Shown piece by piece: positions 23,492-41,575 of a DNA stretch of 64,000 bases. Under the pieces are notes generated by a model that saw only the letters and a program-made list of their open reading frames with translations, did not search any database and was not told where the DNA came from. Within the stretch, counting starts at the first letter, position 1. Every line of letters starts with the position of its first letter. The DNA comes from Amycolatopsis acidiphila. GTDB lineage: Bacteria > Actinomycetota > Actinomycetes > Mycobacteriales > Pseudonocardiaceae. The DNA lies in the NCBI RefSeq assembly GCF_021391495.1, contig NZ_CP090063.1, positions 3,596,001-3,660,000 of the forward strand. Direction: 5' to 3'. A program made the position numbers and the translations under genes.

Positions 23492-23496
23492 GGTTC

Positions 23497-25433: not shown

Positions 25434-26180
25434 TCAACCCCGCAGCAGGCGGCCCGCACCGGAGATCGCCGGCTCGTGGCCGAGGGACCGCAGCACCTCG
25501 TAGGCGGTCGCCGTCGCGGCGGTGACCACAGGCAGCCCCAGCTCCTCCTCGGCCACCTCCACCGCGTCCAGCGACGGCATCTGGACGCACGCCGAGAGCA
25601 CCACGGCCTCCGCGCCCTCCCGCCGCAGGCCCCGGGCGATGCCGGGCAGCTTGCCGGGATCCAGCCGGCCCACGGCAAGGTTGTCGGCCACCTCCAGCGA
25701 CACCGCGTCGAGCACCTGCACACCCTCGCCCTCGATGTACTCCCGCACCATCCGCGTCAACGGCGCCATGTACGGCGTCACGATCGCGACGTGGCTCGCC
25801 CCGATCGCCCGCAGCGTCCGCACGAGCGCGCCCGCGCTGCTGACCACCGCCGCCGGATGGCCGTTGCGTTCCGCCGCGTCCCCGATGGCCTGCTCGGACT
25901 CCTTGTGCGCCCCCGGCCCCTGCGCCATCACCGCCACGAGGCACGCATACGCGATCACGTCGACATCCGCGTCCGACACCGCTGTCGCGCACTCCGCTGC
26001 CTTGCCGACCATGGCCAGCAGCTCCTCGCGGTTGACGTGCTTCATCCTCGCGCGCGCCGAGTGGAACGTGTACCGGTGCCCGGTGCTTTCGCGCTGCCTG
26101 CGGAACAGCTCCGGCAGCTCCGTCTCCATCGTCGTGTTCGAGCTCGGCACGATCAGGCCGATCCGGGACGAGTTCACCAC
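25434..26180 (-). CDS. nicE: Maleate cis-trans isomerase (NicE/MaiA-like)
   Basis: A 248-residue Asp/Glu-racemase-superfamily enzyme converting maleate to fumarate, the last step of the maleamate pathway. The paired catalytic cysteines are C80 (IAYACLVA) and C198 (VVLSACVQM), at spacings like characterised maleate isomerases. The N-terminal RIGLIVPSSNTTMETE is typical. Two consecutive GTG codons begin the frame; the second (26175-26177) overlaps the upstream stop as GTGA and may be the real start. It is the distal gene of the hydroxypyridine operon and feeds the TCA cycle. Confidence 0.88.
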   Translation of the reverse strand: MVNSSRIGLIVPSSNTTMETELPELFRRQRESTGHRYTFHSARARMKHVNREELLAMVGKAAECATAVSDADVDVIAYACLVAVMAQGPGAHKESEQAIGDAAERNGHPAAVVSSAGALVRTLRAIGASHVAIVTPYMAPLTRMVREYIEGEGVQVLDAVSLEVADNLAVGRLDPGKLPGIARGLRREGAEAVVLSACVQMPSLDAVEVAEEELGLPVVTAATATAYEVLRSLGHEPAISGAGRLLRG

Positions 26181-28564
26181 TGTTCGACTCCTTTGTCCGA
26201 AGTGAGGGCGCGCCAGACCTTCTCCGGCGTCACCGGCAGGCTGTCCAGTTCCACGCCGTGGTCCGCCAGCGCCTCGCAGATCGCGTTCGCGATCGCCGCG
26301 CCCGGCGGGATCGTGCCGACCTCACCGACCCCGCGGATGCCGAACGGCGTGACCGGCGACGGGACCTCGGTGTGCAGCAGCTCGACCGGCGGCAGGTCCG
26401 CGGCCGTCGGCGGGAAGTAGTCCACCATCGACCCGTTGACCAGCTGCCCGGTCTCCGCGTCGTAGCGCAGCTCCTCCGTGAGCGCGGCACCGAAACCCTG
26501 CGCCAGCGCGCCCCGCACCTGCCCGTCGACGATTTTCGGGTTCACGACCGTGCCCGCGTCGTGGACCAGCACGAACCGCTCCACGCCGAACTCGCCGGTC
26601 TCCGGGTCGACCGCCACCAGCGCGGCCGCCGTGCCGAACGAGTAGGCCGCGTCGGACGGCTCGAAGTGCGACGTCGCCTCCAGGCCGGGGTCCTCGCCGG
26701 GCGGGATGCCCTGGCCGGTGATCGCGGCGCTGTAGACCTCCGCGAGCGGGACCGCCACGCCCGGCTCGGTGCGATGCCGCACGAGCGGACCCGCGATCTC
26801 CAGCTCCTCGGGCTGCACCTCCAGCCGGAACGCCGCCAGCCGCAGCGTCTTGCGCGCCAGCTGTTCCGATGCCTCGCGGATCGCGCCCGCGGCGGCGATC
26901 ATCGTGCGCGACGCGAACGAACCGGTGTTCAACGGTGACGCGGCCGTGTCGCCGACGTGCACCGTCACCGCGTCGTAGTCGGTGCCGAACACCTCGGCCA
27001 CCAGCTGCGCGAACGCCGTCTCGCTGCTCTGGCCGATCGTCGACACTCCCGTGTAGGCGTCGATCCCGCCGGACCTGTTGGCGCGCAACGTGATGCTCTC
27101 GTGCGCGCCGAACTGCGAGCCGCGCTTGGCGAGGAAGCGCGAACTGGCGTACCCGGTGCGCTCGACGAACGACGAGAAGCCGATGCCCACCAGCCGCCCG
27201 TCCGCGCGTGGCCGCCGCGGTGCCGCCCGGTGCTCGGCCCAGCCGATCCGCTCCGCCGCCATCCGCAGGCAGCGCTCGTAGTCGCCGCTGTCGTAGACCG
27301 CGCCGGCCGGGTTCACCCACGGCAGGTCGGCCGGCTTGAGCATGTTCCGCGCCCGCAGCTCGACGGGGTCCATCCGCAGCCGCCGGGCCAGCCGGTCCAT
27401 CAGCCGCTCGTACGCGAAGTTGACCTCGGGCTGCCCGTAGCCGCGGTACGCGCCGACCGGGGTCTTGTTGGTGAGCGTGACCCGGCGCTCGGTGTAGCCG
27501 TCCTCGACCTTGTAGGGACCGTTGAAGACCACGCTGGACAGTTGCGCGGACCCGAACGGCGAGTTCCAGCCGCCGATGTCGGTGGCGTAGACGTCGGTCA
27601 TCGCGAGGATCCGCCCGTCCGCGTCCGCCGCGATCCGGTAGTCGTGCACCGACTCGCGGCCGTGCGTGCTGGCCCGGAAGTGCTCACCCCGGTCCTCACT
27701 CCACTTGACCGGGCGGTGCAACGCCATCGCGTGCAGACACGCCAGCACGTCCTCGGGGAACACGCCGAGCTTGAGCCCGAAACCACCGCCGACGTCCGAC
27801 GCGATCGCGCGGACCTCGCTTTCACGCAGCCGCAACGACTCCGCGAGCTGCTTGCGGATCAGGTGCGGCACCTGGGTCGAGCAGTGCACGGTCAGCTCCC
27901 GTGCGCCGGGCCGCCACTGCGCGACGACCCCACGGGTCTCCATGGGCAGCGCCGTGACCCTGCCGATCCGGAACCGGCCTTCGACGACCACGTCCGCTTC
28001 GGCGAACCGTGCCGCCGGGTCTCCTCGTCCGTCCGAATTGGACGCGAGCAGGTTGGACCCCAGCACCGACGGGTGCAGCACCGGCGCATCGGGCTCCAGC
28101 GCCGCGAGCACGTCGACGACGTGGGGCAGGGGTTGGTACTCGACGTCGACCAGTTCGAGCGCGTCCTCCGCCAGGTGCCGGCTGGTGGCGACGATACTGA
28201 CCACCGGCTGCCCCTCGTGCGTTGCGACGTCCTGGGCGAGCGCATAGTACGGCAGCCTCGGTGCGCCGGGCACCGGGCGCAGCACGCCAAGCGGCTCGCT
28301 CAGCCGCTGGACCTCAGGCCCGGACAGCACGTGCTGGACACCTTCGAGCCGTTCGGCGGCGGAGGTGTCGACCCGCACGATCCGGGCGTGCGGGTACGGG
28401 CAGCGCGCCACGGCCATGTACAGCACCCGGGCCGGGTCGACGTCGTCGGTGAACTGCCCGTCGCCGCGCAGCAGCCGCTCGTCCTCCTTGCGGGCCACCG
28501 AGACACCCAGTGCGCCGGGTCTCCTGCCGGCGGTGCGTTCCGGTGAGCTCTCCAGCGTCGTCAT
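26174..28564 (-). CDS. Molybdopterin-binding large subunit of 3-hydroxypyridine dehydrogenase-type hydroxylase
   Basis: A 796-residue xanthine-oxidase-family large subunit carrying the molybdopterin cytosine dinucleotide cofactor. Typical elements are ARKEDERLLRGDGQFTDD at the N-terminus, SDVGGGFGLKLGVFPED, GAYRGYGQPEVNFAYERLMD, GVSTIGQSSETAFAQL, and GIRGVGEVGTIPP, whose glutamate is the expected base at the molybdenum centre. With the small and FAD subunits nearby it forms a three-subunit hydroxylase using water as oxygen donor. The ATG at 28562-28564 overlaps the small-subunit stop. Pathway context indicates hydroxylation of 3-hydroxypyridine to 2,5-dihydroxypyridine. Confidence 0.9.
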   Translation of the reverse strand: MTTLESSPERTAGRRPGALGVSVARKEDERLLRGDGQFTDDVDPARVLYMAVARCPYPHARIVRVDTSAAERLEGVQHVLSGPEVQRLSEPLGVLRPVPGAPRLPYYALAQDVATHEGQPVVSIVATSRHLAEDALELVDVEYQPLPHVVDVLAALEPDAPVLHPSVLGSNLLASNSDGRGDPAARFAEADVVVEGRFRIGRVTALPMETRGVVAQWRPGARELTVHCSTQVPHLIRKQLAESLRLRESEVRAIASDVGGGFGLKLGVFPEDVLACLHAMALHRPVKWSEDRGEHFRASTHGRESVHDYRIAADADGRILAMTDVYATDIGGWNSPFGSAQLSSVVFNGPYKVEDGYTERRVTLTNKTPVGAYRGYGQPEVNFAYERLMDRLARRLRMDPVELRARNMLKPADLPWVNPAGAVYDSGDYERCLRMAAERIGWAEHRAAPRRPRADGRLVGIGFSSFVERTGYASSRFLAKRGSQFGAHESITLRANRSGGIDAYTGVSTIGQSSETAFAQLVAEVFGTDYDAVTVHVGDTAASPLNTGSFASRTMIAAAGAIREASEQLARKTLRLAAFRLEVQPEELEIAGPLVRHRTEPGVAVPLAEVYSAAITGQGIPPGEDPGLEATSHFEPSDAAYSFGTAAALVAVDPETGEFGVERFVLVHDAGTVVNPKIVDGQVRGALAQGFGAALTEELRYDAETGQLVNGSMVDYFPPTAADLPPVELLHTEVPSPVTPFGIRGVGEVGTIPPGAAIANAICEALADHGVELDSLPVTPEKVWRALTSDKGVEQW

Positions 28565-29073
28565 GCCGTCCTCGCGCCGTCGGCCGTTTCGTCCTCCCGG
28601 GCCCCCTGCGGGTGCTCGGCGAACCACCGCTCGATAGCCGTTACGACGTTCTCGTAGCCGGTGCACCGGCACAGCACGCCCGCGATCTCCTCGCGGATCT
28701 CGGCCCGGCACGGCCGCTTCCCCTGGTACGCCAGTGCCGTCGCGGTCATCAGGAAGCCGGGCGAGCAGAACCCGCACTGCAGGGCGTGCTCCTCCTTGAA
28801 CGCCTGCTGCAGCGGGCTGAGCCGGTCGTCCTCGGCCAGCGACTCGACGGTCCGCACGTGCCGGCCGTCGAGCTGGCAGGCGAGCATGAGGCACGACTTG
28901 ACCGCCTCGCCGTCGACCATCACCGTGCACATGCCGCACGAGCCTTGCTCGCAGCCGACGTGGGTGCCGGTGAGGCCGAGGTGCTGGCGCAGGAAGTCCG
29001 CCACGTGCAGCCGGGCCGGGACGCTCGCGTGCACGAGCTTCCCGTTGACCATGGTCTCGACCTCGACGTTCAT
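28561..29073 (-). CDS. 2Fe-2S small subunit of the molybdenum hydroxylase
   Basis: A 170-residue electron-transfer subunit with two 2Fe-2S sites. The N-terminal plant-type ferredoxin domain has CEQGSCGMC and a fourth cysteine in VKSCLMLA. The C-terminal helical domain has CGFCSPGFL and VLCRCTGYENV. It passes electrons from the molybdenum site to FAD on the medium subunit. Unusually, the FAD subunit gene is not adjacent but lies four genes upstream, beyond the dioxygenase, deformylase, HD and SRPBCC genes. Start and stop overlap neighbours by four bases. Confidence 0.93.
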   Translation of the reverse strand: MNVEVETMVNGKLVHASVPARLHVADFLRQHLGLTGTHVGCEQGSCGMCTVMVDGEAVKSCLMLACQLDGRHVRTVESLAEDDRLSPLQQAFKEEHALQCGFCSPGFLMTATALAYQGKRPCRAEIREEIAGVLCRCTGYENVVTAIERWFAEHPQGAREDETADGARTA

Positions 29074-30116
29074 CGTTTCTCGGCCGGGCGCATGTCGGGC
29101 ACGGTGAGCTCGCCCGCGTCGACGATGAGCTCGTCGTCGAGGTACAGCGAGCAGCCACGCATCGGGATGTCGAAGTGGCAGGGGGTGTCGTTGGGTCCGC
29201 CGAGCTCGTTGTTCGGGCCGATGGAGAACATGACGTTGCCGTAGAAGCTGCGCAGCTCCATGCCCATGCCGCCGGGGAACTGGGTCAGCCCGTGCCAGTG
29301 TGCGCGCTCGTCGAGGCCCCAGCCGACGTGCGACATGCCGTAGCCGCGGGGGTCGTGGAACGACTCGATGTAGCTGCGCAGCAGGTCGGCGTCGAGGCCG
29401 GAAGAGCCGGAACCGCCGCGGATGTCGCGGATGAAGCCCTGTTCAATGGTGAGCTCGACCGGGGTCTGCACGTAGGTGTTGAACGGCAGCAACACGTCGC
29501 CCGGTGCCAGGACGATCTTGCCGTCCACGCCGTCGTCGGCGCCGCCGGTGAACACGAATGCCGCAGGCCAGTGGTCCCACCGGCCGGGCTGGTCGGTGTA
29601 GCCGTACTCCGACAGCGTCGGGTAGACGCCGAGGCGGTAGCTGACGTCGGTGCCGAGCGGGCTGGTGATCCGCATGGTCTGGGCCTTGGCGAGGATCTCG
29701 GCGGCGATCTCGACGCGCCCGCGCAGCTCCTTCGTCGGCATCAGCCGGGCCAGCAGCGGCACCGGCTCGACAGCGCTGAGGATGCGGGTGCTGGCGCCCT
29801 GGATTTCGAACTGCTCCTTGCTGAACAGCAGGAACGTGCAGTCGACCACCATGTCGACGCTCTTGAGCGCCTCCACCGCCAGCCTGTTGCCCTTCAGCCC
29901 GGACTCGCCGACCGCCCACGCGCCGGAGGAGCCCGACGGCGAGGGAAGGCGCAGGTGGAACGTCTGGGCGCCCAGCTGCTGCGCGGCCCACAGGAAGGCG
30001 TCGGCGTACTCCGCGCGCTCGCCGCCCTGGGTGAGCACGGCGACGGTCTCGTCCTCGTGCACGCCGGACAGGGTCAGCTGGCGCAGGCAGATCTCGTTGA
30101 ACAGGTTCTGGTCCAT
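29070..30116 (-). CDS. nicX: 2,5-dihydroxypyridine 5,6-dioxygenase (NicX-like)
   Basis: A 348-residue extradiol-type ring-opening dioxygenase converting 2,5-dihydroxypyridine to N-formylmaleamate. H263 (MSHVGWG) with H314 and D316 (CHFDIPMR) match the mononuclear iron ligands known for NicX (His265, His318 and Asp320 in the Pseudomonas putida enzyme, from memory), with near-identical spacing. Length equals the family norm. The N-terminal domain (VAVLTQGGERAEYADAFL) resembles the aminopeptidase-like fold of the family. It supplies the ring-cleavage step linking the molybdenum hydroxylase to the deformylase. Confidence 0.92.
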   Translation of the reverse strand: MDQNLFNEICLRQLTLSGVHEDETVAVLTQGGERAEYADAFLWAAQQLGAQTFHLRLPSPSGSSGAWAVGESGLKGNRLAVEALKSVDMVVDCTFLLFSKEQFEIQGASTRILSAVEPVPLLARLMPTKELRGRVEIAAEILAKAQTMRITSPLGTDVSYRLGVYPTLSEYGYTDQPGRWDHWPAAFVFTGGADDGVDGKIVLAPGDVLLPFNTYVQTPVELTIEQGFIRDIRGGSGSSGLDADLLRSYIESFHDPRGYGMSHVGWGLDERAHWHGLTQFPGGMGMELRSFYGNVMFSIGPNNELGGPNDTPCHFDIPMRGCSLYLDDELIVDAGELTVPDMRPAEKR

Positions 30117-30128
30117 GGGGTTGCTCTC

Positions 30129-30953
30129 CTATCGCTGGCGTGCCGCGAGCAGGTGCGGCCGGACGGTGTCGAGGAAGCCGGTCAGGTTGTCCCACGGCAC
30201 CATGTGGCCGGCCGCGGGAACGCTCAGGATTTCGATGTCGGGACGGCCCGAGCGCAGGTCTTCGGCGGCGGCGGCCGGGACGACGGGGCTGTCCCCGCCG
30301 CGGACGAGCAGGACCGGCGCGGTCAGCCGGGCCCAGTACTCGAAGAAGTCCTCGCGTTCGAAACCCTCGTGGGTCTCCAGCACGGCGGTCTCGTCGCACG
30401 AGGCCAGCACTTCGGCGCGCAGCCGCAGTTCGCGCTCCGGCCACTTCGGGTAGAAGCGGCGGATCTCGTCGGCAGTCGTGCCGCGCTGGGCTTCGTGCAG
30501 CTGTTCCAGGAAGGACTCCCGGGACGTCGGGTACGGCCCGCGGCCGGGGCCCGACGTCGGCGGGTCGACGAGCACGAGCAGGCCGTGGTCCCGCGGGGCG
30601 TGCCGCACCGCGTAGGCGGCGGCGATCCGGGCGCCCATCGAGTGCCCGACGACGACCGGCCGGTGCAGGCCGAGCGCGCCGACGAGCCCGGCGACGTCGG
30701 CCGCGTAGTCGGTGAGCCGGTACTGCCCCGACGGGGCCCGCTCGGTCTCGCCGCGACCGCGGGCGTCCGGGACCGTGACGCGGTAGCCCCAGTCGGCGAA
30801 GAGCACCGCGAGGAAGTCCGCGGTGACCGCCGGGCTGGTGATCCCGGGCAGGACGAGCAGGTCGGGGGAGTCCGGCTCGCCGTAGCGCAGGACACGGTGG
30901 CGCAAGCCGTTGGCTTCGGCGAAAACACTTTCCCCGGCAATGGCTGTGGTCAT
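30129..30953 (-). CDS. nicD: N-formylmaleamate deformylase (NicD-like alpha/beta hydrolase)
   Basis: A 274-residue alpha/beta-hydrolase. S105 in VVGHSMGAR, D129 in LVLVDPP and H249 in AAGHMVPW form the triad; each is four residues beyond the corresponding position I recall for NicD (101, 125, 245), a strong match. It releases formate from N-formylmaleamate to give maleamate. The ATG at 30951-30953 overlaps the HD-protein stop; 12 bases separate its stop from the dioxygenase start. Confidence 0.9.
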   Translation of the reverse strand: MTTAIAGESVFAEANGLRHRVLRYGEPDSPDLLVLPGITSPAVTADFLAVLFADWGYRVTVPDARGRGETERAPSGQYRLTDYAADVAGLVGALGLHRPVVVGHSMGARIAAAYAVRHAPRDHGLLVLVDPPTSGPGRGPYPTSRESFLEQLHEAQRGTTADEIRRFYPKWPERELRLRAEVLASCDETAVLETHEGFEREDFFEYWARLTAPVLLVRGGDSPVVPAAAAEDLRSGRPDIEILSVPAAGHMVPWDNLTGFLDTVRPHLLAARQR

Positions 30954-31543
30954 CGGTCCTCCTCCGGCAGCTGTCCGGTCGCCCACTCCAGCAGCGCCGC
31001 GACGGGTTCGCGGGCGGCGGGGACCCGGACACGGCCGGCCATGTAGGTCAGCTTGGCGATTCCCTTGTCCCGCGAGCAGCTGCCCGAGGACACCCAGCTC
31101 GCGGTGAGCCCGGCGAGGGTTTCCAGGTAGGACAGCGAGTCCGCGGCCTGGACCTCGTCGGCGCCGTTGAGCCCGCCGACCTCGTGCAGGCCGACGAGCC
31201 TGCGCACCTCGGCGATGTCGAGCGAAGCGGTGTCGAGACCGGCGAGCCAGAACCCGACGATCTCGGCCGAGCGGAGCATGTGCGGGTACAGGTAGAACGG
31301 GCTGTCCCAGTCGGTCGTCGCGTGGTCGAGCGCCGGGCCGCCGGGGAACATGCGCTCGATGTCGTGGGTGAGCGCGGCGATCCGCAGCTCGGCCGGCGCG
31401 TCCGGCACCAGCCAGACGAGCCAGTCGCGGGCCCGCGCCAGGTGGTGGGCCTGGTTGTAGGGCCGGACCCACTCGGCGGCCAGCGCCTCGGTCCCGCTCG
31501 CGGCGGGCACCTCGGGCGCGGTCCAGGGCAGTACGGACGTCAT
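30950..31543 (-). CDS. HD-domain metal-dependent hydrolase of the hydroxypyridine cluster
   Basis: A 197-residue HD-superfamily protein. Metal-binding candidates are the histidines in NQAHHLARA (33-34), H60-D61 in ALTHDIERMF, and a later histidine in YLYPHMLRSAE. HD proteins are usually phosphohydrolases acting on nucleotides or other phosphoesters. No step of the known maleamate route needs one. Its tight coupling on both sides (ATGA overlaps) and the two dikinase-like proteins in the same operon suggest a phosphorylated intermediate, but this is inference. Confidence 0.78.
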   Translation of the reverse strand: MTSVLPWTAPEVPAASGTEALAAEWVRPYNQAHHLARARDWLVWLVPDAPAELRIAALTHDIERMFPGGPALDHATTDWDSPFYLYPHMLRSAEIVGFWLAGLDTASLDIAEVRRLVGLHEVGGLNGADEVQAADSLSYLETLAGLTASWVSSGSCSRDKGIAKLTYMAGRVRVPAAREPVAALLEWATGQLPEEDR

Positions 31544-32151
31544 CGGCGCGACCTCCGGAAGCTCCTCGCGAGCGTCGCGAGGCTGACGGCCACCGAGACC
31601 GCGCTCAGTGCGGCCACGACCTTCGTCCACGGATCAGCCGCGGCCACGGGGGTGGGTTCGGCCACGGTGGACGCCACCGGGGTGGCGACCGGAGCCGCCG
31701 CGGTTTCGCCGCCCAGCGCGGTCTCGAGGTTGCGCGAGAACGCGCCCGTGACCTTGCGCGCCTGCTTGGCGACCACCTTCTGCCCGACGCTGCCGAGCGC
31801 CCCGGCGAGTGCGACGTCGCCTTCGACGATGACCGTCGTGCGGTCGCCCGCGGGCTCCAGCTGCACGTTCACCGTCGCCCGGACATTGCCCATCGCGCCG
31901 CGGACCGTCTTGCCGGTGGCGGTGAAGGCGATCAGCTTCTCCGGCACCCGCTCGACGATCTTGATCGAGGCGGCGAACGTCGCGGTCATCGGGCCGACGC
32001 TCTGGGTGACCCGCACGTCGATGTCCTCCGGACCGCGCATCGTCAGGTCCTCGACCCCCGGGACACAGCCCGCCACCCGCGCGGGCTCGTCGAAGAAGGT
32101 CCAGACCTCGGCCACCGGCCTGCCGACCTGGAACTCCTCACGCAACTTCAT
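31540..32151 (-). CDS. Stand-alone SRPBCC (CoxG-like) component
   Basis: A 203-residue protein with an N-terminal SRPBCC/CoxG domain (residues 1-150; FQVGRPVAEVWTFFDEPARVAGCVPGVEDL is split over the start of the family profile), an Ala/Thr/Pro linker, and a C-terminal helix (about 178-196) followed by basic residues, probably a membrane anchor. In the Ensifer adhaerens 3-hydroxypyridine dehydrogenase, a separate SRPBCC subunit is part of the enzyme, unlike other SRPBCC-containing N-heterocycle hydroxylases. Here it is again a separate gene, overlapping the FAD-subunit stop by 14 bases. It could bind substrate or aid cofactor assembly. Confidence 0.87.
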   Translation of the reverse strand: MKLREEFQVGRPVAEVWTFFDEPARVAGCVPGVEDLTMRGPEDIDVRVTQSVGPMTATFAASIKIVERVPEKLIAFTATGKTVRGAMGNVRATVNVQLEPAGDRTTVIVEGDVALAGALGSVGQKVVAKQARKVTGAFSRNLETALGGETAAAPVATPVASTVAEPTPVAAADPWTKVVAALSAVSVAVSLATLARSFRRSRR

Positions 32152-33007
32152 GGATTCCTCCTTGGGCTTCGCGCAGCTCGGTGAGCACCCGGCGCACGTA
32201 CACGGGCACCAGGTGGCGGCGGTACTCCGCGGAAGCGCGGACGTCCGTCGGCGGGTCGACGACGGTCAGTGCCGCCTCGGCGGCGACCGTCACGTCGTCG
32301 TCGGTCAGCCGGCTGCCCTCGAGCGCCGAGGGGGCGAGCACGGGGCTGTCGGCCACGCCGCCGAGAGCGAGGCGGACGCCGTGCCAGGTCCCGTCCTCGT
32401 CCCGGTTGCCGGTGGCGACCGCGCTGATGACCGCGAAGTCGTTGTGCTTGCGGCAGAACTCGCGGAACGCGAAGTGCTGCGGATGGGCCGGGAACTCGAC
32501 CGCGACGACCAGCTCGCCGGGGTCGAGCACGGTGGCGTACGGGCCTTCGTAGAACTCCGCCAGCGGGATGCGGCGGGTACCGGCGGGCCCGGCGGCGACG
32601 ACCACCGCGCCGAGCACGAGGCACGCCAGCGGCAGCTCGCCGGTCGGGTCGCCCTGCACGAGTGCGCCGCCGACGGTGCCGCGGTTGCGCACCTGCCGGT
32701 CGCCGATGTGCCGGACGATCCGGGCGAGCAGCGGCAGCCGCTCGGCGACGAGTGGGGAACGCTCCACGGTGGAGTACCGCACCAGCGCGCCGAGGACGGT
32801 CCGGTCGCCCGCTGGGAGGATGTCGTCGAGGTCGTCGATGTCGTTGATGTCGACGAGCGCGTCCGGCCGCCACAGGCGCATGTTCAGCATCGGGACCAGG
32901 CTCTGGCCCCCGGCGAGCACGCGGGCGCCACCGCCGTACTCACCGAGCCGGGCGACGGCCTCCGCCACGGACGTCGGCCGGTGGTACGCGAACGGAGCAG
33001 GCTTCAT
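32138..33007 (-). CDS. FAD-binding medium subunit of the molybdenum hydroxylase
   Basis: A 289-residue CoxM-type subunit. The FAD-binding loops ARVLAGGQSLVPMLNMRL (residues about 28-45) and RNRGTVGGALVQGDPTGELPL (about 108-128) are intact. The C-terminal CO-dehydrogenase flavoprotein domain follows (RLALGGVADSP). It carries electrons from the 2Fe-2S subunit to the respiratory acceptor or NAD. The ATG overlaps the stop of the ATP-grasp gene by four bases. Confidence 0.92.
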   Translation of the reverse strand: MKPAPFAYHRPTSVAEAVARLGEYGGGARVLAGGQSLVPMLNMRLWRPDALVDINDIDDLDDILPAGDRTVLGALVRYSTVERSPLVAERLPLLARIVRHIGDRQVRNRGTVGGALVQGDPTGELPLACLVLGAVVVAAGPAGTRRIPLAEFYEGPYATVLDPGELVVAVEFPAHPQHFAFREFCRKHNDFAVISAVATGNRDEDGTWHGVRLALGGVADSPVLAPSALEGSRLTDDDVTVAAEAALTVVDPPTDVRASAEYRRHLVPVYVRRVLTELREAQGGIHEVA

Positions 33008-34104
33008 GCGCCCGTGCCCCGGCTGCCGCGAGCCACGCCCACCCCCGCGAACCGCGCCAGCACGTGGTTGACGGCGGACTTCCGCTCACCGACCAGCTGC
33101 TCGGCCCGCCGGCGGCTCCACACCGTCTCCGGCCGCACCTGCAACACCCGCACGTCACCCCGTTCGCCGACGGCCCACTCGACGTCCTGCGGGCCGCCGC
33201 GGTGCTGTTCGATGCGCTTGGCCAGCTCCGCGAGCGCGCGGATCTGGTCGTCGTCGAGGCACGGCGACTCCTGCCGGTCCGTCTCCACCGGCACCAGACC
33301 GACCGCCGCGGCCGCCGGGTCGAACCCGAACTTCGACTCCTGCCGGGCCACCTCGCGCCGGATCACCTCGAAGGTCACCTTGTCCACGACGTAGCGGCTG
33401 GGCGTGATCCCGCCGCTCACGACGCCTTCGCCGAGGCCCCAGCAACCCTCGATGACCACCTTGGACCGGTCGCCGGTCACGGGGTCGAGGGTGAACATCA
33501 CCCCGGCCGCGCGCGCCTGCACCATCTGCTGCACCCCGACGCAGATGCCGAGGTCCGCGGTGAGCACACCGGCATCGGCGTCCGGCCGGTAGGTGAGCAC
33601 CGCCGCGCCGAACATCCCGGCCCAGCAGCGGCGGACGTGCCGCAGCAGGTCCTCGGCGCCGCGGATCCACAGGAAGGTGTCGTACTGCCCGGCGAAGCTG
33701 GCACCCGCGAGGTCCTCGGACTCGCCGCTCGACCGCACGGCCACCGGCAGGTCCTCCTGTCCCGCACGGCGTTCCAGCTCCGCGTAGGCGTCCCGGATCT
33801 CGCGCTCGAGGTCGGCGGGCAGGTCGGCGTCGTCGATGGCGGCGGCGAACTCGGCGCTGATCCGCTGCACGTCCGCCAGGTCGGCGCCGCCCGCCTCCGC
33901 ACGGACCGCACGCGCCCGCTCCGCCAGCCCCGCCGACTCCAGGAAGTGGCGGTAGGCGGTGGTGGTGATGCCGAACCCCGGGGGCACCTCGAAGCGCGCC
34001 GCGGTCATCTCGGCCAGGCTGCCGAACTTGCCGCCGAGCACGCGGTTGCCGACGGCGCCGGGGTCGTCGAGCCACAGGACGAACCGGGAAACGGCGGGGG
34101 TCAT
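33004..34104 (-). CDS. Pyruvate-phosphate-dikinase ATP-binding-domain protein
   Basis: A 366-residue protein equal to the N-terminal ATP-grasp domain of PEP synthase/PPDK. It has GNRVLGGKFGSLAEM, VRSSGESEDLAGASFAGQYDTFL with nucleotide-binding arginine, MVQARAAGVMFTLDPVTGD, VIEGCWGLGEGVVSGG and a final VLQVRPETVW. No PEP/pyruvate barrel is present. With the next upstream protein it forms a split dikinase-like pair reminiscent of phenylphosphate synthase or rifampicin phosphotransferase. Both proteins are reported to be needed for 3-hydroxypyridine dehydrogenase activity in Ensifer. It likely autophosphorylates the partner histidine with ATP. Confidence 0.88.
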   Translation of the reverse strand: MTPAVSRFVLWLDDPGAVGNRVLGGKFGSLAEMTAARFEVPPGFGITTTAYRHFLESAGLAERARAVRAEAGGADLADVQRISAEFAAAIDDADLPADLEREIRDAYAELERRAGQEDLPVAVRSSGESEDLAGASFAGQYDTFLWIRGAEDLLRHVRRCWAGMFGAAVLTYRPDADAGVLTADLGICVGVQQMVQARAAGVMFTLDPVTGDRSKVVIEGCWGLGEGVVSGGITPSRYVVDKVTFEVIRREVARQESKFGFDPAAAAVGLVPVETDRQESPCLDDDQIRALAELAKRIEQHRGGPQDVEWAVGERGDVRVLQVRPETVWSRRRAEQLVGERKSAVNHVLARFAGVGVARGSRGTGA

Positions 34105-35975
34105 GCCTGCGCCTCCTCGACAACGCGGACGACGCCGGTGTTGCCGTCGACCTCGATGAGCTGTCCGGTTCGGATGGTCGTCGTCGCGAAGCCGGTGCCG
34201 ACGACCGCGGGCAGGCCGTACTCGCGGCACACGATCGCGGTGTGGGCCATGATCCCGCCGACGTCGGACACCGCGGCCGAAAGCCGCGAGAAGACCGGCG
34301 CCCAGCTGGGCGCGGTGATGCGGCAGACCAGGATCTCCCCGTCCTGCACCAGGTGCAGGTCCTCCGGGTCCACGATCACCCGGGCGCGGCCGGTCGCCTT
34401 GCCCGCGGACGCCGCGACCCCGCGCAGCTCGCCGCCCTCCTCGCCCTTGGCGCCCAGCCACTCCTGCACCGACTCCTGCGTGATGCCCCAGAGCATCACG
34501 GTCAGCGGTTCGGTGATGAACTCCGGCGGCACGCCGAGCGCGGGCTGCGGCGGGTGCGCCTTGAGGACGTCCCGGATCCGCTTGCGGCGCGCGATCTCGG
34601 GGCGCCAGTAGGTGACGCCGCGAGCCTCCGTGCCGGTGGCCCAGCCGATGTTGAGGTCGTACAGCGCCGAGTAGATCTCGTTGCGGTGCAGGTAGAAGAT
34701 GTCCTCGCGGTCGTCGAGGAAGTCGTGTGCGACGAACACGTCGCCCAGCTCGCGCACCTTCGACCAGAACAGCGAGTGGTGCCAGTGCTCGACGTAGAAG
34801 TTGTGGTTCTCGACGAACGGGAACACCTTGCGGGCGAGCTCGACCAGCCCGTCGAACACCTCCTGGTCGGCCTCGGTGGGCAGGTAACCGCGGTACTCCG
34901 CGGTGATCCGGGTGCGCTCGGCGAGGATCTCGTCGAGCGGGCGGCGGATGTCCGCACCGCCGAGCAGGCTCTTGACGTATCCGCGCAGTGCGGTGAACGG
35001 CAGGCGCAGGTCGTCGATCCAGGCCCGGTCGCTGTGCGTGTAGCCGGCACCGGTGGAGAACCAGAACCACGGGTCCTTCGCCCCCTCGAACGCCTCGATC
35101 CACTGTGGACCGTTCGGGTGCGCGGCGATGGCGGCGAGCACGTCGTCCGGGTTCTCGCCATCCAGCACGAGGTCGGCCAACTCCAGCTCGACGGCGAGCT
35201 TCGCCAGCCCGCGCACCTCGTCGTCCGGGCGGAACAGCATGATGTCGATGCCCGACACCATGGCCGCGAGCGTCTGGTCGGTGATCCCGGGGAAGGCGGC
35301 CTGGCAGAACTCCTGGAACGTCAGGTACGCGCCGTACCCGAGGTTGAGCATCTCGAAGTGGTACGAGCCCATCTCGAACAGGTTCGCGGTCAGCTCGCCG
35401 TATTTCGTGAGCAGGTCGTACGTGGAGTACGTGCCCTTGTGCCGCAGGACGCTCTCCAGTGGCTCCTGCTCGGGCAGCGGGGCGAAGTGGATCGCCTTGA
35501 GCCGTTCGATGCAGCCGGTCGCCTTCGCCACCCACTGCTCGTAGATCTCGTCCCAGTTCTCGTAGTAGTGCCCGGCGCGGAGGGAGAACTCCTCGGCGCG
35601 GCGGGCGATCTCGTCGGGGTCGGTGACGGCGTTGGGGCTGATGTAGAGGTAGCCGTTGATGATCCGGTGGTCGATCCCGCCGGCGGGCGGTACCGGCCAC
35701 ACCCGCGTCGACATCTGGCTGGCGGCGACCCACCAGTTCTCGGTCATGATCGTGTCGAACGGGTAGAGCGGCTCCGGGTTGTGCATCCCGTCGAAGAACC
35801 AGAACTTGCCGTCCTCGAACTCCGCCCGCTCCTGGCTCAGCAGCGCGTAGTACGGGTACATGCTCTCCCAGCCTTCGGCGCCCGGCGGCGTCTCGACCGC
35901 GAAGGGGCTGGCGAAGCGTTCGCCGGGTACTGCCTGTGCCGGTCGCGTGCTGGGATTCGGGTCAGTCACGGTCAT
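34101..35975 (-). CDS. PEP-utilizing (phosphohistidine) mobile-domain protein
   Basis: A 624-residue protein. The C-terminal 90 residues are a PEP-utilizer mobile domain with the phosphorylatable histidine in GGIMAHTAIVCREYGLPAVVG. The large N-terminal region (about 1-500) is helical, rich in aromatic residues (MYPYYALLSQERAEF, YYENWDEIYEQWVA, WHHSLFWSKVRELGDVF), and is probably the substrate-binding part. The ATG overlaps the maleamate amidase stop. It likely shuttles phosphate from the ATP-grasp partner to the hydroxypyridine or a bound intermediate; the actual chemistry is not known to me. Confidence 0.85.
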   Translation of the reverse strand: MTVTDPNPSTRPAQAVPGERFASPFAVETPPGAEGWESMYPYYALLSQERAEFEDGKFWFFDGMHNPEPLYPFDTIMTENWWVAASQMSTRVWPVPPAGGIDHRIINGYLYISPNAVTDPDEIARRAEEFSLRAGHYYENWDEIYEQWVAKATGCIERLKAIHFAPLPEQEPLESVLRHKGTYSTYDLLTKYGELTANLFEMGSYHFEMLNLGYGAYLTFQEFCQAAFPGITDQTLAAMVSGIDIMLFRPDDEVRGLAKLAVELELADLVLDGENPDDVLAAIAAHPNGPQWIEAFEGAKDPWFWFSTGAGYTHSDRAWIDDLRLPFTALRGYVKSLLGGADIRRPLDEILAERTRITAEYRGYLPTEADQEVFDGLVELARKVFPFVENHNFYVEHWHHSLFWSKVRELGDVFVAHDFLDDREDIFYLHRNEIYSALYDLNIGWATGTEARGVTYWRPEIARRKRIRDVLKAHPPQPALGVPPEFITEPLTVMLWGITQESVQEWLGAKGEEGGELRGVAASAGKATGRARVIVDPEDLHLVQDGEILVCRITAPSWAPVFSRLSAAVSDVGGIMAHTAIVCREYGLPAVVGTGFATTTIRTGQLIEVDGNTGVVRVVEEAQA

Positions 35976-36637
35976 GCGTGCGCCTCCGCCTCGGCTGTGG
36001 TGGTGGGAAGGGTCCCGAGGTAGCTCAGGACGTCGTCGAGGTCGACGACGTCGCCGTACTTCTGGTCCATGTCGAAGAGGTTCGCCTCGTGCGGGCCCGG
36101 CGCCCGGTCGGCGACGCAGTCCCGCGGCACGAGCACCGGGTAGCCGTACTGCACGGCGTCGACGACCGTGGCCCGGACGCAGCCGCTCGTCGTCGCGCCG
36201 GTGACGACCACCGTGTCCGCCCCGGCCGACGTGAGGTACGCGGCCAGCGCCGTGCCGAAGAACGCCGACGCGCCGGTCTTGACCACCAGGTGCTCCTCCG
36301 GCCGCGGTGCGAGCCTGCCGTCGATCTCCACCAGCCTGCTGCCGAGCGTCAGCGCCGCCATGCCGGTCGCCTTCCGCAGCCACGCGAGCGTGCCGACCTG
36401 GCCGGGGTCGTAGGCGATGGTGGTGAACACGACCGGCAGGCCGAGTTCGCGAGCCCGGCCGAGCAGCCGCGCGGTGGCCAGCACGGGCCCGGTCATGTCC
36501 GCGCCCGTCGGGTACGCGCGGTCGGTGAACCCGTAGGAGAAGTCGACCACGATCACGGCGGGTCGCGCGCCTCGCGGTACCCGGCGGCCGAAACCGGCTT
36601 GGTCGTAGACGCGTGCGGTCGAGGACGGGGTGTCCAC
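35972..36637 (-). CDS. nicF: Maleamate amidohydrolase (NicF-like isochorismatase family)
   Basis: A 221-residue cysteine hydrolase. The triad is D32 (VIVVDFSYGF), K120 (HLVVKTGASAFFGT) and C153 (TGATTSGCVRATVVD). It converts maleamate to maleate and ammonia; N-carbamoylsarcosine amidase is the closest alternative, but the pathway context decides. The GTG at 36635-36637 has GGGAG six bases upstream. It is the first gene of the eleven-gene operon, directly downstream of the palindromic operator at 36672-36689. Confidence 0.88.
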   Translation of the reverse strand: MDTPSSTARVYDQAGFGRRVPRGARPAVIVVDFSYGFTDRAYPTGADMTGPVLATARLLGRARELGLPVVFTTIAYDPGQVGTLAWLRKATGMAALTLGSRLVEIDGRLAPRPEEHLVVKTGASAFFGTALAAYLTSAGADTVVVTGATTSGCVRATVVDAVQYGYPVLVPRDCVADRAPGPHEANLFDMDQKYGDVVDLDDVLSYLGTLPTTTAEAEAHA

Positions 36638-36671
36638 CGGCGGCTCCCTTCGTTGGAAAGCTCCACCAGTG

Positions 36672-36689
36672 TGGCATACATGTATACCA
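36672..36689. promoter_or_regulatory. Palindromic operator 1, hydroxypyridine operon
   Basis: TGGCATACATGTATACCA is an 18-base palindrome with a single mismatched pair, 34 bases upstream of the maleamate amidase start. Its core ATACATGTAT is perfect. It shares the pattern GCATAC-NN-GTATACC with a second site about 194 bases away, and the GTATAC core suits FadR/GntR-type regulators. The GntR gene at 38474 is the natural candidate binder. The overlap with the expected promoter suggests repression. Confidence 0.7.
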
Positions 36690-36867
36690 TTTTGGCAAGG
36701 ACTTCCTCGCGGAATTCTCGGGCGGCAGTGGGTCCAGTCTGCGTCACGCACCCGGTTCGGGGGAAGGGCTCGGCGCCCGTCGCAACCTGTCCGTCATGAT
36801 CCGTAACCCGTCTGTCACGAGGAAAACCAGCAGGTCACGGGGTCGACACGAAGGCTTGCCGCGAGTT

Positions 36868-36881
36868 GCATACCGGTATAC
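36868..36881. promoter_or_regulatory. Palindromic operator 2, transporter side
   Basis: GCATACCGGTATAC repeats the operator 1 pattern with a perfect ATACCGGTAT core and lies 115 bases upstream of the transporter ATG. A further half-site GCATACC begins at 36895. The rest of the 359-base gap (36638-36996) holds no gene that I can support. Two sites flanking a divergent promoter pair would allow joint control of degradation operon and transporter, possibly by looping. Confidence 0.68.
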
Positions 36882-36996
36882 CTTCTTGCTTCACGCATAC
36901 CCGCGGCACCCGCGGGAGCGGTTTCTCGGCACCTCCGCGGATCTCGCCCACTCCGGCGCACTCGGTGCGCCCCTTCCGTCCCCGCTGGGAGAAGTG

Positions 36997-38373
36997 ATGC
37001 CACAGTTCCCCGAACAGGCCTCCACCAACTGGGTCCTGTCGACCTTCATCTACACCGTCGGCGCGGTCGCCGTCCTGCTCGTCGTGGCGGGACTCGTGTT
37101 CGTCGACACCGGCCTCGTCCGCCGGCGCAACGTCCTCGACACCACCGTGCAGAAGATCGGCGCCGCGATGGTCGGCGGTCTCGGCACCCTGCTCATCGGC
37201 TACCCGATCTGGCAGTGGCAGTTCAACCAGGCGTTCGGCGTGCCGGAGCCGTTCCGGCAGGCGGTGCGGGACTGGTGGCTCGGCGGCGCCTTCACCACCA
37301 CGTCGTCGCGGTACGTCGACCCAGCCGCCCTGCCCGAGGCCGACGTGCAGCAGATCTTCCTGGTGTTCTTCGTGACCTTCACGATGGCGACCGTCGCGTT
37401 GATCCACACCGGCGTGGTCGAACGGATCAAGCCGGTTCCCCTCTACGTCATGTCCTTCGTCGTCGGCGCGGTGCTCTCACCGCTCGTCGGTTATCTGTGC
37501 TGGGGTTCGCTGTCGCCGCTCACGCTGCGCGGAACCCACGACTTCGACGGCGTCTTTCCGCTCTACATCACCGCGGGCACGTTCGTGCTCGTGCTGGCGT
37601 GGCGCGTCGGCCCGCGGCTCGGCGCCTTCCTGCCGCACCGCAGCGGCGCGAAGCCCGCGTCCCACAACGCGGCGTTCGTGGGCATCGGGGTGCTGCTGAT
37701 ACTGGTGGCCCTGCCGTTCGTGACGCTCGGCAGCGGCTACATCGTGCCGGGCACGGGTTTCTTCGGGATCTCGTTCACCGAAAGCGGGCTCGGGCTGGTC
37801 GTCGTGAACCTGTTCGCCGCGCTGCTCGGCGGTGCGGTGACGGGGTTGCTGCTGGCGTACCGGCGCCGGGACGCGACCTCGGCGCTGCTCGGCCCGGTCG
37901 CCGGTGTCGTCATGGCGGGCACGCTGCTCGACATCGGGAACGCCTGGGAGTGCCTGCTCGTCGGCGCGCTCGGGCCGGTGGTCGCGCTCGGCACCGCGGC
38001 GTTGCTGAAGAAGGCGCGCATCGACGACCCGAAGGTGGTGCCGCTGGCACTCGGCCCCGGTGCGATCGGTGCCGTGCTGACGGGCTTCCTGAAGTGGGGC
38101 ACGCGAACCGGTGGTTACCTCGGGCTGGACGGCGCGCACGCGGTGGGCGTCGGGGAGATCACGCCGTGGTGGCAGCTGGCGGGGGTCGTGGCGACGATGC
38201 TGGTGGCCGGGGTGCCCGCGCTGCTGCTGTGTCTGGTGTTCGAGCGGTTCGACGGGCTCCGGGCGAGCGAGCATGAGGAGCTCGTGGGGCTCGACCAGAC
38301 GCGGTGGGGCGTGTCGAACTTCGCGGACGACCTGGAGGCGATGCCGGTGGCGGAGCCGCCGGTGCCCGCGTGA
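36997..38373 (+). CDS. Amt-fold membrane transporter lacking the pore twin histidines
   Basis: A 458-residue protein with about eleven helices and ammonium-transporter family marks: VDTGLVRRRNVLDTTVQKIG in helix 1-2, ALIHTGVVERIKP, the conserved D182 in HDFDG, and RIDDPKVV before the last helices. Where E. coli AmtB has H168, eight residues after its conserved aspartate, this protein has Y190; the second pore histidine (H318, DDP-CDVFGVHG) aligns with leucine near L352. The ATG at 36997 follows GGGAG. It is divergent from the hydroxypyridine operon. It may carry a neutral or organic substrate such as a hydroxypyridine, or ammonium in an altered way. Confidence 0.8.
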   Translation: MPQFPEQASTNWVLSTFIYTVGAVAVLLVVAGLVFVDTGLVRRRNVLDTTVQKIGAAMVGGLGTLLIGYPIWQWQFNQAFGVPEPFRQAVRDWWLGGAFTTTSSRYVDPAALPEADVQQIFLVFFVTFTMATVALIHTGVVERIKPVPLYVMSFVVGAVLSPLVGYLCWGSLSPLTLRGTHDFDGVFPLYITAGTFVLVLAWRVGPRLGAFLPHRSGAKPASHNAAFVGIGVLLILVALPFVTLGSGYIVPGTGFFGISFTESGLGLVVVNLFAALLGGAVTGLLLAYRRRDATSALLGPVAGVVMAGTLLDIGNAWECLLVGALGPVVALGTAALLKKARIDDPKVVPLALGPGAIGAVLTGFLKWGTRTGGYLGLDGAHAVGVGEITPWWQLAGVVATMLVAGVPALLLCLVFERFDGLRASEHEELVGLDQTRWGVSNFADDLEAMPVAEPPVPA

Positions 38374-38378
38374 CTCCG

Positions 38379-38410
38379 GCGGCGGGGCCCGTTTCCGGCG
38401 GGCCCGCCGC
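38379..38410 (+). terminator. GC-rich hairpin after the Amt-like gene
   Basis: The arms GCGGCGGGGCCCG and CGGGCCCGCCGC pair with one bulged G and a loop of seven bases, starting six bases after the transporter stop. There is no U-run, which is common for actinobacterial terminators. It could separate the transporter transcript from gntR. Confidence 0.45.
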
Positions 38411-38473
38411 TATGATCTGCACTTGGCCCGCGGCGCATCCGGCGGTCGCGGCGAGCGTTGGGAGAGCGCGTTC

Positions 38474-39175
38474 ATGCAGTCACCGGGGCGTGGCGTGGTG
38501 CCCCTGTCCCAGCGCACGAGCGAGGGTGTGGCGCGCGTCCTGCGGAACGAGATCTTCTCCGGCCGGCTCAAGCCGGGGGAGCCGGTGCGGGAGCGGCTGC
38601 TGGCCGAGCAGCTCGGCGTGAGCCGGACGCCGGTGCGAGAAGCCCTGTTCACGCTGCAGAGCGAGGGGCTGGTCGAGCTGACGCCCAACCGGGGCGCGAC
38701 CGTTCGCACCATCACCGCGCGCGACATCATGCAGATCTACACGCTGCGCGAGGTACTCGAGTCGTACGCGGCGGGCGAGGCGGCGCAGGCCAGGACGAGC
38801 GAGGACCTGGAGGCACTCGAGGACGCGCACGCGAAGCTGGAGCGCGTCTCGCCGACGGGCACCCCGATGCAGGTCGCGATGGCCGACCTGGCCTTCCACA
38901 CGCTCGTCAGCGAGGCGGCGGGAAGCCGGATGCTGCAGACGATCATGGGACAGGTCCTGGCGTTCACGGTCAGCTTCCGGTCGAACTACTCCTATCCGGG
39001 TGAGCGGGCCGCCGTGGCGATCGAACAGCACCGCGCGATCCTCGACGCGCTCCGGGAACAGGACGCCGAGCGGGCGGAGCGGCTCATGCGGGAGCATGTC
39101 GAATCGGCGAGGCTCTTCGCGCTGCGGCACTTCACGCATGCGCAGCGGGAGGCAGAGCCCGAGACGGGCACCTGA
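38474..39175 (+). CDS. GntR/FCD-family transcriptional regulator
   Basis: A 233-residue FadR-subfamily regulator: N-terminal winged helix (residues 10-78, with ERLLAEQLGVSRTPVREALFTL and LVELTPNRGATV) and an all-helical FCD effector domain (MADLAFHTLVSEAAG, EQHRAILDALREQD) holding histidines that commonly bind a metal near the effector. The ATG at 38474 is placed by similarity. It lies downstream of the Amt-like gene and probably binds the two GTATAC palindromes in the 36.6-37.0 kb gap, with the inducer likely a hydroxypyridine or a downstream acid. Confidence 0.88.
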   Translation: MQSPGRGVVPLSQRTSEGVARVLRNEIFSGRLKPGEPVRERLLAEQLGVSRTPVREALFTLQSEGLVELTPNRGATVRTITARDIMQIYTLREVLESYAAGEAAQARTSEDLEALEDAHAKLERVSPTGTPMQVAMADLAFHTLVSEAAGSRMLQTIMGQVLAFTVSFRSNYSYPGERAAVAIEQHRAILDALREQDAERAERLMREHVESARLFALRHFTHAQREAEPETGT

Positions 39176-39289: not shown

Positions 39290-39600
39290 CGCGAAGGCTC
39301 GGCGAACACGGCGGGTCGAGGGGTGGGAGTACGCCTTGTCGCCCCGCAGCCGGACATCCAGCGGCCCAGCGCCGGCATAGCCGGAGGCGAGGTCGTCCTC
39401 CACCAGGGGCAGCAAGTGGGGATTGTCTCCGGCCTGTCCGGGGCTCAGTCGCACGGCGACGAGGTCGCGGGTGGCGTCGGCCAGCGCGTGAATCTTGGTG
39501 GTCAGCCCGCCACGGGAGCGGCCCAGCGCGTGATTGTCCGGCTCGGCGGGCGGATTCGTGTCGATCGCCCCAGCCCGCTGTGTGGTCGCCGGCCGGCTCC
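39290..39600 (-). pseudogene. IS5-family transposase remnant
   Basis: On the minus strand the stretch DNHALGRSRGGLTTKIHALAD, followed by VAVRLSPGQAGDNPHLLPL and LRGDKAYSHPSTRR, is the central DDE part of an IS5-group transposase. The first and last thirds are missing, and no inverted ends or target duplication are visible. It is a decayed insertion between the hydroxypyridine cluster and the glycan unit, marking a probable junction of acquired segments. The rest of 39176-39845 holds only the operators described separately. Confidence 0.75.
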
Positions 39601-39629
39601 CGGCCCGGGATCGCCGTCCAGGTGGCCTA

Positions 39630-39676
39630 TTGCAACGTGTGCAAACCCGCAGTACCGTTCTTGCAAACGATGGCAA
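39630..39676. promoter_or_regulatory. Two LacI-type operators upstream of the sialidase
   Basis: TTGCAACGTGTGCAA (39630-39644) and TTGCAAACGATGGCAA (39661-39676) are pseudo-palindromes with TTGC/GCAA arms and a central CG, typical of LacI-family sites. The first is the exact reverse complement of the site at 46961-46975 upstream of the ABC transporter operon. They lie 170-215 bases before the sialidase start, so a long leader or a promoter within 39680-39845 is implied. Confidence 0.7.
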
Positions 39677-39845
39677 AGCGGCCTGCGGTGGGCACCCGGA
39701 GCATCGGCTGACGGCGAGAACGGCGGACGGCCCGTGTGCTGCCGCAGCGGCTCGGCGATCTCGGATGCTGCTCGGGTGGGCTCAGCGGGACGACGGATCG
39801 AGCTGTCCGCGGCCGCGGCGCCATCCCGTCCGAGGAGTGAGGTCC

Positions 39846-41519: not shown

Positions 41520-41532
41520 GTCCTTCGAGCAT

Positions 41533-41573
41533 GAAAGGGGAGGCCGGTCCACGGTGGACCGGCCTCCCCTTTC
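41533..41573. terminator. Bidirectional 19-bp hairpin terminator
   Basis: Perfect 19-base arms (41533-41551 and 41555-41573) with a three-base loop lie between the stops of the convergent sialidase and GH2 genes. Each strand ends with a short CCCCTTTC run. The stem is strong enough to terminate transcripts from both sides. Confidence 0.85.
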
Positions 41574-41575
41574 GC

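Follow-up and report, generated by a model that had tools for sequence, protein, structure and literature searches.

A 3-hydroxypyridine-type catabolic operon of Amycolatopsis acidiphila with a two-component aryl dikinase and an HD-fold protein: a proposed phosphate-masked hydroxylation

The single-contig genome of the soil actinobacterium Amycolatopsis acidiphila (NZ_CP090063.1, 8.18 Mb) encodes a genuine and complete catabolic operon of the 3-hydroxypyridine type, ordinary in kind, which probably degrades 3-hydroxypyridine. It lies in the 64,000-nucleotide stretch from 3.596 to 3.660 Mb analysed here (the window, whose first letter is position 1), where eleven minus-strand genes running from 36637 down to 25434 form the operon and genes for an Amt-fold protein and a GntR regulator diverge from it on the plus strand (Table 1). 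In order of transcription these genes encode NicF, a phosphoenolpyruvate (PEP)-utilizing protein, a PPDK_N protein of the pyruvate phosphate dikinase (PPDK) type, the flavin adenine dinucleotide (FAD) subunit of a molybdenum (Mo) hydroxylase, a CoxG/SRPBCC protein, an HD-like protein, NicD, NicX, the 2Fe-2S and Mo subunits of the hydroxylase, and NicE. Nine of the ten junctions are overlaps of 4-14 bases, the exception being a 12-base gap between NicD and NicX; the gene starts in these coordinates are our choice. For the way in which the operon works we cautiously favour phosphate-masked hydroxylation, with the substrate phosphorylated before it is oxidised and freed of phosphate afterwards.

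In the proposed mechanism the two-component dikinase formed by the PPDK_N and PEP-utilizing proteins would, as its family suggests, use ATP and a phospho-histidine to place phosphate on the ring hydroxyl, yielding pyridin-3-yl phosphate. The Mo hydroxylase would then hydroxylate the carbon next to the ring nitrogen, para to the O-phosphate, perhaps while tethered to the membrane by the tail of the CoxG protein. The HD hydrolase would presumably remove the phosphate to give 2,5-dihydroxypyridine, which NicX, NicD, NicF and NicE would take on to fumarate. Tagging with phosphate before oxidation would explain why a kinase pair stands beside an oxidising enzyme. Taken singly, the kinase step appears likely from its sequence, dephosphorylation by the HD protein appears reasonably probable, and the proposition that the phosphoester is the true substrate of the hydroxylase is evenly poised.

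The initial annotation of this stretch had recognized the PPDK-type and PEP-utilizing genes and treated them as accessory; both are present, but the pair fits a two-component aryl kinase. At E up to 0.001, PF00391 is the sole Pfam match of the large protein (624 amino acids), which also scores above cut-off with the NCBIfam PRK08296 models and aligns to solved chains over its swivel domain only. The small protein (366 amino acids) matches PF01326 alone at E up to 0.001, has no PEP-synthase barrel, and finds PEP synthase 9dae (4.6e-67) first in the PDB, followed by 9goj (7.7e-65), which is HpeI. At 45-49% (large) and 39-40% (small) identity, the two proteins resemble pairs from the phenylphosphate carboxylase (ppc) cluster of Azoarcus KH32C (L112), a cre-like cluster on a Rhodococcus ruber plasmid (L113), a Thermomicrobium cluster (L114) and an hpe-like cluster (L115), where "cre-like" and "hpe-like" are our own labels taken from neighboring genes. 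These four pairs are 42-46% and 37-46% identical among themselves, and the accessible text of PMC12167813 gives about 45% for HpeH, CreH and PpsA. The same text describes a T/SXXGGXXXH motif with a Met two residues before the His, to which the swivel motif SDVGGIMAH conforms; it further reports that the swivel phospho-histidine of HpeHI transfers phosphate onto phenolic hydroxyls, and that aromatic hydroxyls are the targets of the characterised two-component enzymes PpsAB, CreHI and HpeHI. The swivel histidine, His578, is kept in all 41 rows of our alignment (the window and 40 loci, L071 being too short). On sequence we assign the pair to the two-component phenol dikinases of the PpsAB, CreHI and HpeHI type. 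The idea that it serves central metabolism as a PEP synthase or PPDK was rejected on the missing pyruvate-binding barrel and the family identity, even though PEP synthase 9dae stands just ahead of HpeI as the top PDB match of the small protein. The same genome has a second, distant two-component pair at 7772759-7774378 of the contig (L032; 27-29% and 37% identity), and a plasmid collection holds 277 records with a kinase match, all under 60% identity, ten of which cover at least 80% of the query at 39-49%.

The identity of the hydroxylase is supported by homology. Among the solved relatives of its Mo subunit, quinoline 2-oxidoreductase 1t3q scores best (6.8e-152); CO dehydrogenase (1.3e-140) and then 6-hydroxypseudooxynicotine dehydrogenase (3.1e-128) follow, with nicotinate dehydrogenase (9.6e-40) and the xanthine enzymes far lower. 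The check for a nicotinate or purine hydroxylase that accompanied the initial annotation came out in its favor, the nearest solved relative being neither of these but a hydroxylase of N-heterocycles. Its claim that no NicC-type monooxygenase is present likewise agrees with the Pfam matches of the operon proteins, the rest of the genome not having been searched for NicC. With no NicC in the operon and a hydroxylase nearest to quinoline 2-oxidoreductase, nicotinate was rejected as the substrate; a CO dehydrogenase was rejected too, since all NCBIfam matches of the Mo subunit, CO dehydrogenase models included, fall below their cut-offs. All 29 aligned rows retain the eight cysteines of the 2Fe-2S clusters, and Glu748 of the active site is present in 27 of 28, L068 having Asp. 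A Mo hydroxylase of three subunits accompanied by a free-standing SRPBCC protein is the arrangement of 3hpd clusters and the one found here, and four genes separate the FAD and 2Fe-2S genes, as had been noticed before, the HD gene being one of the four. In our reading of the alignment, 31 of 37 CoxG rows have a hydrophobic stretch at the C-terminus; the tail is absent in L062, L063, L068 and L076, while L037 is cut off and L069 mis-extracted. This tail is possibly a membrane anchor, a role that has been proposed for the CoxG homologue of the Ensifer enzyme in the part of PMC11962113 available to us.

The open reading frame at 30950-31543 had gone unnamed in an inventory that was otherwise right, every gene listed there being found by Pfam, PDB and NCBIfam searches. 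We propose, from its sequence and predicted structure, that it encodes an HD-fold metal hydrolase with phosphohydrolase function. Residues H34, H60, D61, H88 and D135 are invariant in 41 rows, and H...HD...D is the metal motif of the HD superfamily. The AlphaFold2 model of the protein has a predicted local distance difference test (pLDDT) score of 93.9, and HD-superfamily hydrolases lead its structural (VIA) list, in keeping with an HD fold. Oxygenases of this fold (MIOX and PhnZ type) are not among the 50 VIA rows listed, which does not exclude them. Foldseek alone gave no HD match under E 0.001, and sequence searches of the PDB did not rise above chance level with either the single protein or a profile, 3ccg (E 1.1) being the only HD entry among the matches. 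The Pfam HD profile picks up ten of the 41 members at a cut-off of E 1, with 2.9e-4 as the best value; the protein of the window is not among them.

The distribution of the HD gene ties it to the kinase. The best 80 of 203 related loci were taken, of which 79 were returned, and 41 of these make up the kinase clade; the kinase tree was a quick build with long-branch warnings, with L071 left out as too short and the hpd group picked by identity beforehand. Homologues of all eleven operon genes occur at 18 of the 41 loci, several others being cut by contig ends. The HD gene is found at 32 of the 41, always on the strand of the kinase, and in 30 of these 32 it is the CoxG or the Mo subunit gene that comes before it on that strand as the nearest window homologue. 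Six of the other nine genomes have an HD gene elsewhere in the assembly (one copy with an internal stop) and three have none anywhere, namely L068, L076 and L039, the last a 4.6 kb contig of a metagenome-assembled genome (MAG). Within the family the HD protein is present in 4 of 249 genomes, and the clade's kinase (83-100% identity) in the same four; in a further 21 genomes the kinases are all more distant (42-51%, E up to 1e-60) and the HD protein is not matched. Under random placement, with ancestry ignored, the odds of this coincidence are 6e-9; none of the genome counts is corrected for shared ancestry. At the level of the phylum, where the first look scored at most eight candidates per genome, HD profile matches occur in 8 of 346 genomes: three are strong (over 200 bits), and all of these lie in clusters of this kind, though they include the window itself and the genome (G325) behind L069; three at 65-75 bits have none of the other twelve window genes within the 12-16 kb fetched; and two score near 20 bits.

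These counts bear on the explanation that we have an ordinary 3hpd cluster whose HD protein serves some unrelated end (hydrolysing alarmones or nucleotides, for instance, or acting as a metal-dependent oxygenase), while the target of the kinase is not the substrate but, say, the CoxG protein or a cofactor. Fold similarity by itself says nothing of function, and the structural list of the HD protein does include alarmone hydrolases and YpgQ, solved with ADP. Yet a protein present in four of 249 family genomes tracks this pathway rather than housekeeping, and the aromatic hydroxyls on which PpsAB, CreHI and HpeHI act according to the accessible part of PMC12167813 speak against another target for the kinase, so that we regard this explanation as distinctly unlikely.

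Several loci of Pseudomonadota (L054, L055, L059, L062-L064 and L066) share the arrangement kinase pair, FAD, CoxG, 2Fe-2S, Mo and HD, relative to which the window is shuffled. No nic gene lies within L055 or L062-L064, and L066 has NicE only; all five of these genomes encode NicX homologues outside the locus, with 42-67% identity for the best. Since nic-free loci keep the kinase, hydroxylase and HD protein together, these appear to be one unit, as their gene content suggests. A similar conjunction of kinase, oxidase and HD protein in one cluster has a precedent on the R. ruber plasmid (L113), where two HD-domain proteins (5086-5697 and 13214-13885) flank the cre-like kinase and P450 cluster. 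On gene order, the matching gene in Corynebacterium glutamicum would be that of the phosphohydrolase CreD.

Three points weigh against phosphate-masked hydroxylation: its three phosphate steps are inferred from family membership and gene association alone; the direct similarity of the HD protein to that of L113 is slight; and L068 and L076 have the kinase and hydroxylase without the HD protein. In neither of these Acidimicrobiia MAGs, however, was NicX found in the genome, which we count in favor of the mechanism. In the quick tree they branch deepest within the kinase clade, and they carry the kinase, hydroxylase and CoxG genes along with further Mo-hydroxylase genes and a carbon-nitrogen hydrolase. 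We found no published phosphate route for 3-hydroxypyridine, which says little, the coverage being without the key 2020 Ensifer paper and most subscription journals.

The kinase might instead merely trap or protect 3-hydroxypyridine in the cell, with the HD protein returning it and the Mo hydroxylase using the free compound. Such trapping has been proposed for HpeHI by its authors, in the portion of PMC12167813 that we could consult. The hydroxylase, for its part, is like enzymes whose heterocyclic substrates carry no phosphate. Yet if one compound were the target of both a kinase and a phosphatase, a futile cycle would result, and the involvement of the PEP and PPDK proteins in HpdA activity that is reportedly seen in Ensifer would fit an obligatory step better. 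The Hpe pathway argues in the same direction: as far as the accessible text of PMC9618137 goes, its carboxylase HpeCBA accepts only the phosphorylated substrate, and HpeD dephosphorylates the carboxylated product, no action on phospho-acetophenone, the unmodified phosphoester, being detected under the conditions used. Trapping seems to us unlikely. Phosphate-masked hydroxylation might also take a stricter form, in which the xanthine oxidase-family hydroxylase would take the phosphoester exclusively, a dedicated HD phosphohydrolase would spare the unmodified phosphoester, and the Amt-fold protein would import or sense the heterocycle and not ammonium; this we put forward only tentatively.

A complete pathway of the 3-hydroxypyridine type had been claimed for this stretch, and the hydroxylase, CoxG/SRPBCC protein, dikinase pair, NicX, NicD, NicF and NicE are indeed all encoded. 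The conversion of 2,5-dihydroxypyridine by the four Nic enzymes to N-formylmaleamate, maleamate, maleate and fumarate is supported by their sequences, and the protein comparison suggested for NicX and NicF returns 7cn3 and 4l07 as their solved matches (Table 1). NicX, the sole copy in the genome (search at E up to 0.001), retains the iron ligands His265, Ser302, His318 and Asp320, as reported in the accessible part of PMC7910607, together with Arg293 in all 21 aligned rows (the window and 20 loci with proteins over 300 amino acids). At the position of the substrate-guiding His105, 20 of the 21 rows, the window included, have Phe, and L059 retains His; this is the single exception among the catalytic and metal-binding residues examined, which are otherwise all in place. 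Ser105 and His250 of the NicD-like protein are kept in 29 of 29 rows, Cys153 of the NicF-like protein in 33 of 33 and Cys79 and Cys197 of the NicE-like protein in 20 of 20, residues that we take to be catalytic. As for the substrate, resting cells of Agrobacterium DW-1 convert 3-hydroxypyridine via 2,5-dihydroxypyridine to N-formylmaleamate, the cell-extract assay covering the dioxygenase only, according to the available text of PMC6525221. The sequence itself fixes no substrate, and the Phe replacing His105, like the Pfam family PF17645 that the NicE-like protein shares with arylmalonate decarboxylase, would be compatible with another natural 3-hydroxy-N-heterocycle, from which 2,5-dihydroxypyridine would be reached via a derivative. 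We give this little credence: no separate ring-decarboxylase or deaminase appears among the Pfam matches of the operon, the iron ligands and Arg293 of NicX are intact, and the NicE-like protein best matches maleate isomerases, with 4fq7 (2.1e-70) as its closest solved relative.

Several known systems come close to the operon. Its gene set is like that of the hpd/3hpd cluster of Ensifer adhaerens HP1, for which a 2020 study is said to describe three hydroxylase subunits together with an SRPBCC/CoxG protein encoded separately, genes for PEP-utilizing and PPDK proteins, and a nic-type lower pathway, reportedly leaving the role of the PEP and PPDK proteins open; also described here for the window are the HD gene, the Amt-fold protein and the GntR divergon. 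The abstract of that study had reportedly noted a wide occurrence of the cluster in Actinobacteria. Presenting an actinobacterial version as a novelty was therefore an overstatement, because the same gene set occurs in many actinobacterial genomes; such clusters are not new in kind and have relatives in many Actinomycetota and Pseudomonadota. The closest named relative by the large kinase protein, among the best 80 of 203, is Amycolatopsis echigonensis (L033; 97%), which carries homologues of all thirteen genes at 92-97% identity. Its Amt gene is out of frame over the first part, through a frame break or an assembly error. With the nicotinate (nic) pathway the operon has in common the lower route from 2,5-dihydroxypyridine; it differs in having no NicC-type gene and in its entry via a kinase and Mo hydroxylase. 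The CreHI/CreJEF/CreD 4-cresol pathway of C. glutamicum and the L113 cluster share with it the combination of a two-component aryl kinase with an oxidase and a protein of the HD-domain type, the Cre oxidase being, as we take it, a P450 acting on a methyl group, unlike the Mo hydroxylase, which would act on a pyridine ring. PpsAB phenylphosphate synthase (Azoarcus-type, L112) is a homologous two-component kinase whose system carboxylates phenylphosphate, and no HD protein is annotated in the L112 stretch fetched. In the HpeHI/HpeCBA/HpeD acetovanillone pathway, as described in the accessible parts of PMC9618137 and PMC12167813, the kinase is again homologous and the phosphoester is modified and then dephosphorylated; there the modifier is a biotin carboxylase and the closest characterised homologue of HpeD is NagD, in contrast to the HD protein of the window. 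On the Thermomicrobium roseum plasmid (L114) a kinase pair lies near a three-subunit Mo hydroxylase, in a fetched stretch without CoxG, HD or nic genes. This is also the one record of the plasmid collection in which the HD protein is matched in part (46% identity over 67% of its length, 8e-18); the matching stretch lies roughly 217 kb from the kinase pair on the circular plasmid. It is perhaps another instance of phosphate-masked hydroxylation.

A regulator and transporter of the cluster's own had also been predicted: the GntR/FCD gene is there, while the "transporter" proved to be an Amt-fold protein without the twin-histidine pore. At the twin-histidine positions it has Tyr190 and Leu352, with Tyr in 20 of 20 rows, and Leu in 17 and Phe in three. 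Its AlphaFold model has a mean pLDDT of 72.5, under 50 at 183-188, and because of these low values supports the fold and not the pore side chains. As both pore histidines of ammonium channels are absent, canonical ammonium transport was rejected; ammonium is probably not what the protein moves or senses, and its cargo or signal is perhaps, by a weak inference, 3-hydroxypyridine. A second Amt-fold protein lacking the twin histidines is encoded at 5246782-5248038 of the contig (L155, L156), next to genes for a Rieske oxygenase, a reductase, a luciferase-type protein, an aldehyde dehydrogenase and an acyl-CoA dehydrogenase. The sequence GYATACNNGTATRC occurs twice in the 8.18 Mb genome, both times in the divergent promoter, and this palindrome element recurs in relatives; the GntR regulator probably controls both directions through the two palindromes.

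Table 1. Genes and sites of the operon and its divergent promoter (window positions)
Feature	Position	Strand	Evidence
NicF-like maleamate amidase (isochorismatase fold)	35972..36637	-	Pfam PF00857 2.3e-38; PDB 4l07 5.4e-77
Large component of two-component aryl dikinase (substrate and swivel domain; PpsA/CreH/HpeH type)	34101..35975	-	PF00391
Small ATP-grasp dikinase component (PpsB/CreI/HpeI type)	33004..34104	-	PF01326 1.9e-93
FAD subunit of Mo hydroxylase	32138..33007	-	PF00941 5e-47, PF03450 1.8e-17
CoxG/SRPBCC protein with hydrophobic C-terminal tail	31540..32151	-	PF06240 1.2e-19
HD-fold metal hydrolase, proposed phosphohydrolase	30950..31543	-	metal motif, predicted fold, co-occurrence
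NicD-like N-formylmaleamate deformylase (alpha/beta hydrolase)	30129..30953	-	PF00561 1.9e-23
NicX 2,5-dihydroxypyridine 5,6-dioxygenase	29070..30116	-	PDB 7cn3 1.9e-88; no Pfam family
[2Fe-2S] subunit of Mo hydroxylase	28561..29073	-	PF01799 6.6e-28, PF00111 9e-9
Molybdopterin subunit of hydroxylase	26174..28564	-	PF02738 4.1e-74, PF20256, PF01315; PDB 1t3q 6.8e-152
NicE-like maleate cis-trans isomerase	25434..26177	-	PF17645 1.3e-20; PDB 4fq7 2.1e-70
Amt-fold membrane protein without both pore histidines	36997..38373	+	
GntR/FCD transcriptional regulator	38474..39175	+	PF07729 2e-29, PF00392 3.4e-19
Operator-like palindrome before catabolic operon	36672..36689		GYATACNNGTATRC site, also in relatives
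Second operator-like palindrome, Amt side of divergent promoter	36868..36881		

Adjoining the operon, plus-strand positions 17417-25403 hold a nitrilase-type cluster (MSMEG_0565-0572, Nit1C-like) with genes for a flavin oxidoreductase (MSMEG_0569), a nitrogen starvation protein (MSMEG_0572), a radical SAM protein (MSMEG_0568), a GNAT/AIR synthase protein (MSMEG_0567), a glycosyltransferase (MSMEG_0565) and a carbon-nitrogen hydrolase that scores below the Nit6803 cut-off; the name Nit1C and a link to cyanide use may apply to it. On the other side, 39534-48027 is a carbohydrate-use region with genes for a Ricin-B-lectin/BNR protein, a glycoside hydrolase of family 2, an ABC permease and a LacI regulator.

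If phosphate-masked hydroxylation is true of this operon, the principle of phosphorylating, modifying and then dephosphorylating a substrate would extend from P450s and carboxylases to molybdenum hydroxylases and N-heterocycles. The placement of the kinase pair in the aryl dikinase family, together with a co-inherited HD hydrolase, would offer a specific and testable mechanism for the puzzle of the PEP and PPDK proteins. Likewise, Amt proteins that lack the twin histidines and sit in catabolic clusters would call into question what the Amt fold carries or senses.

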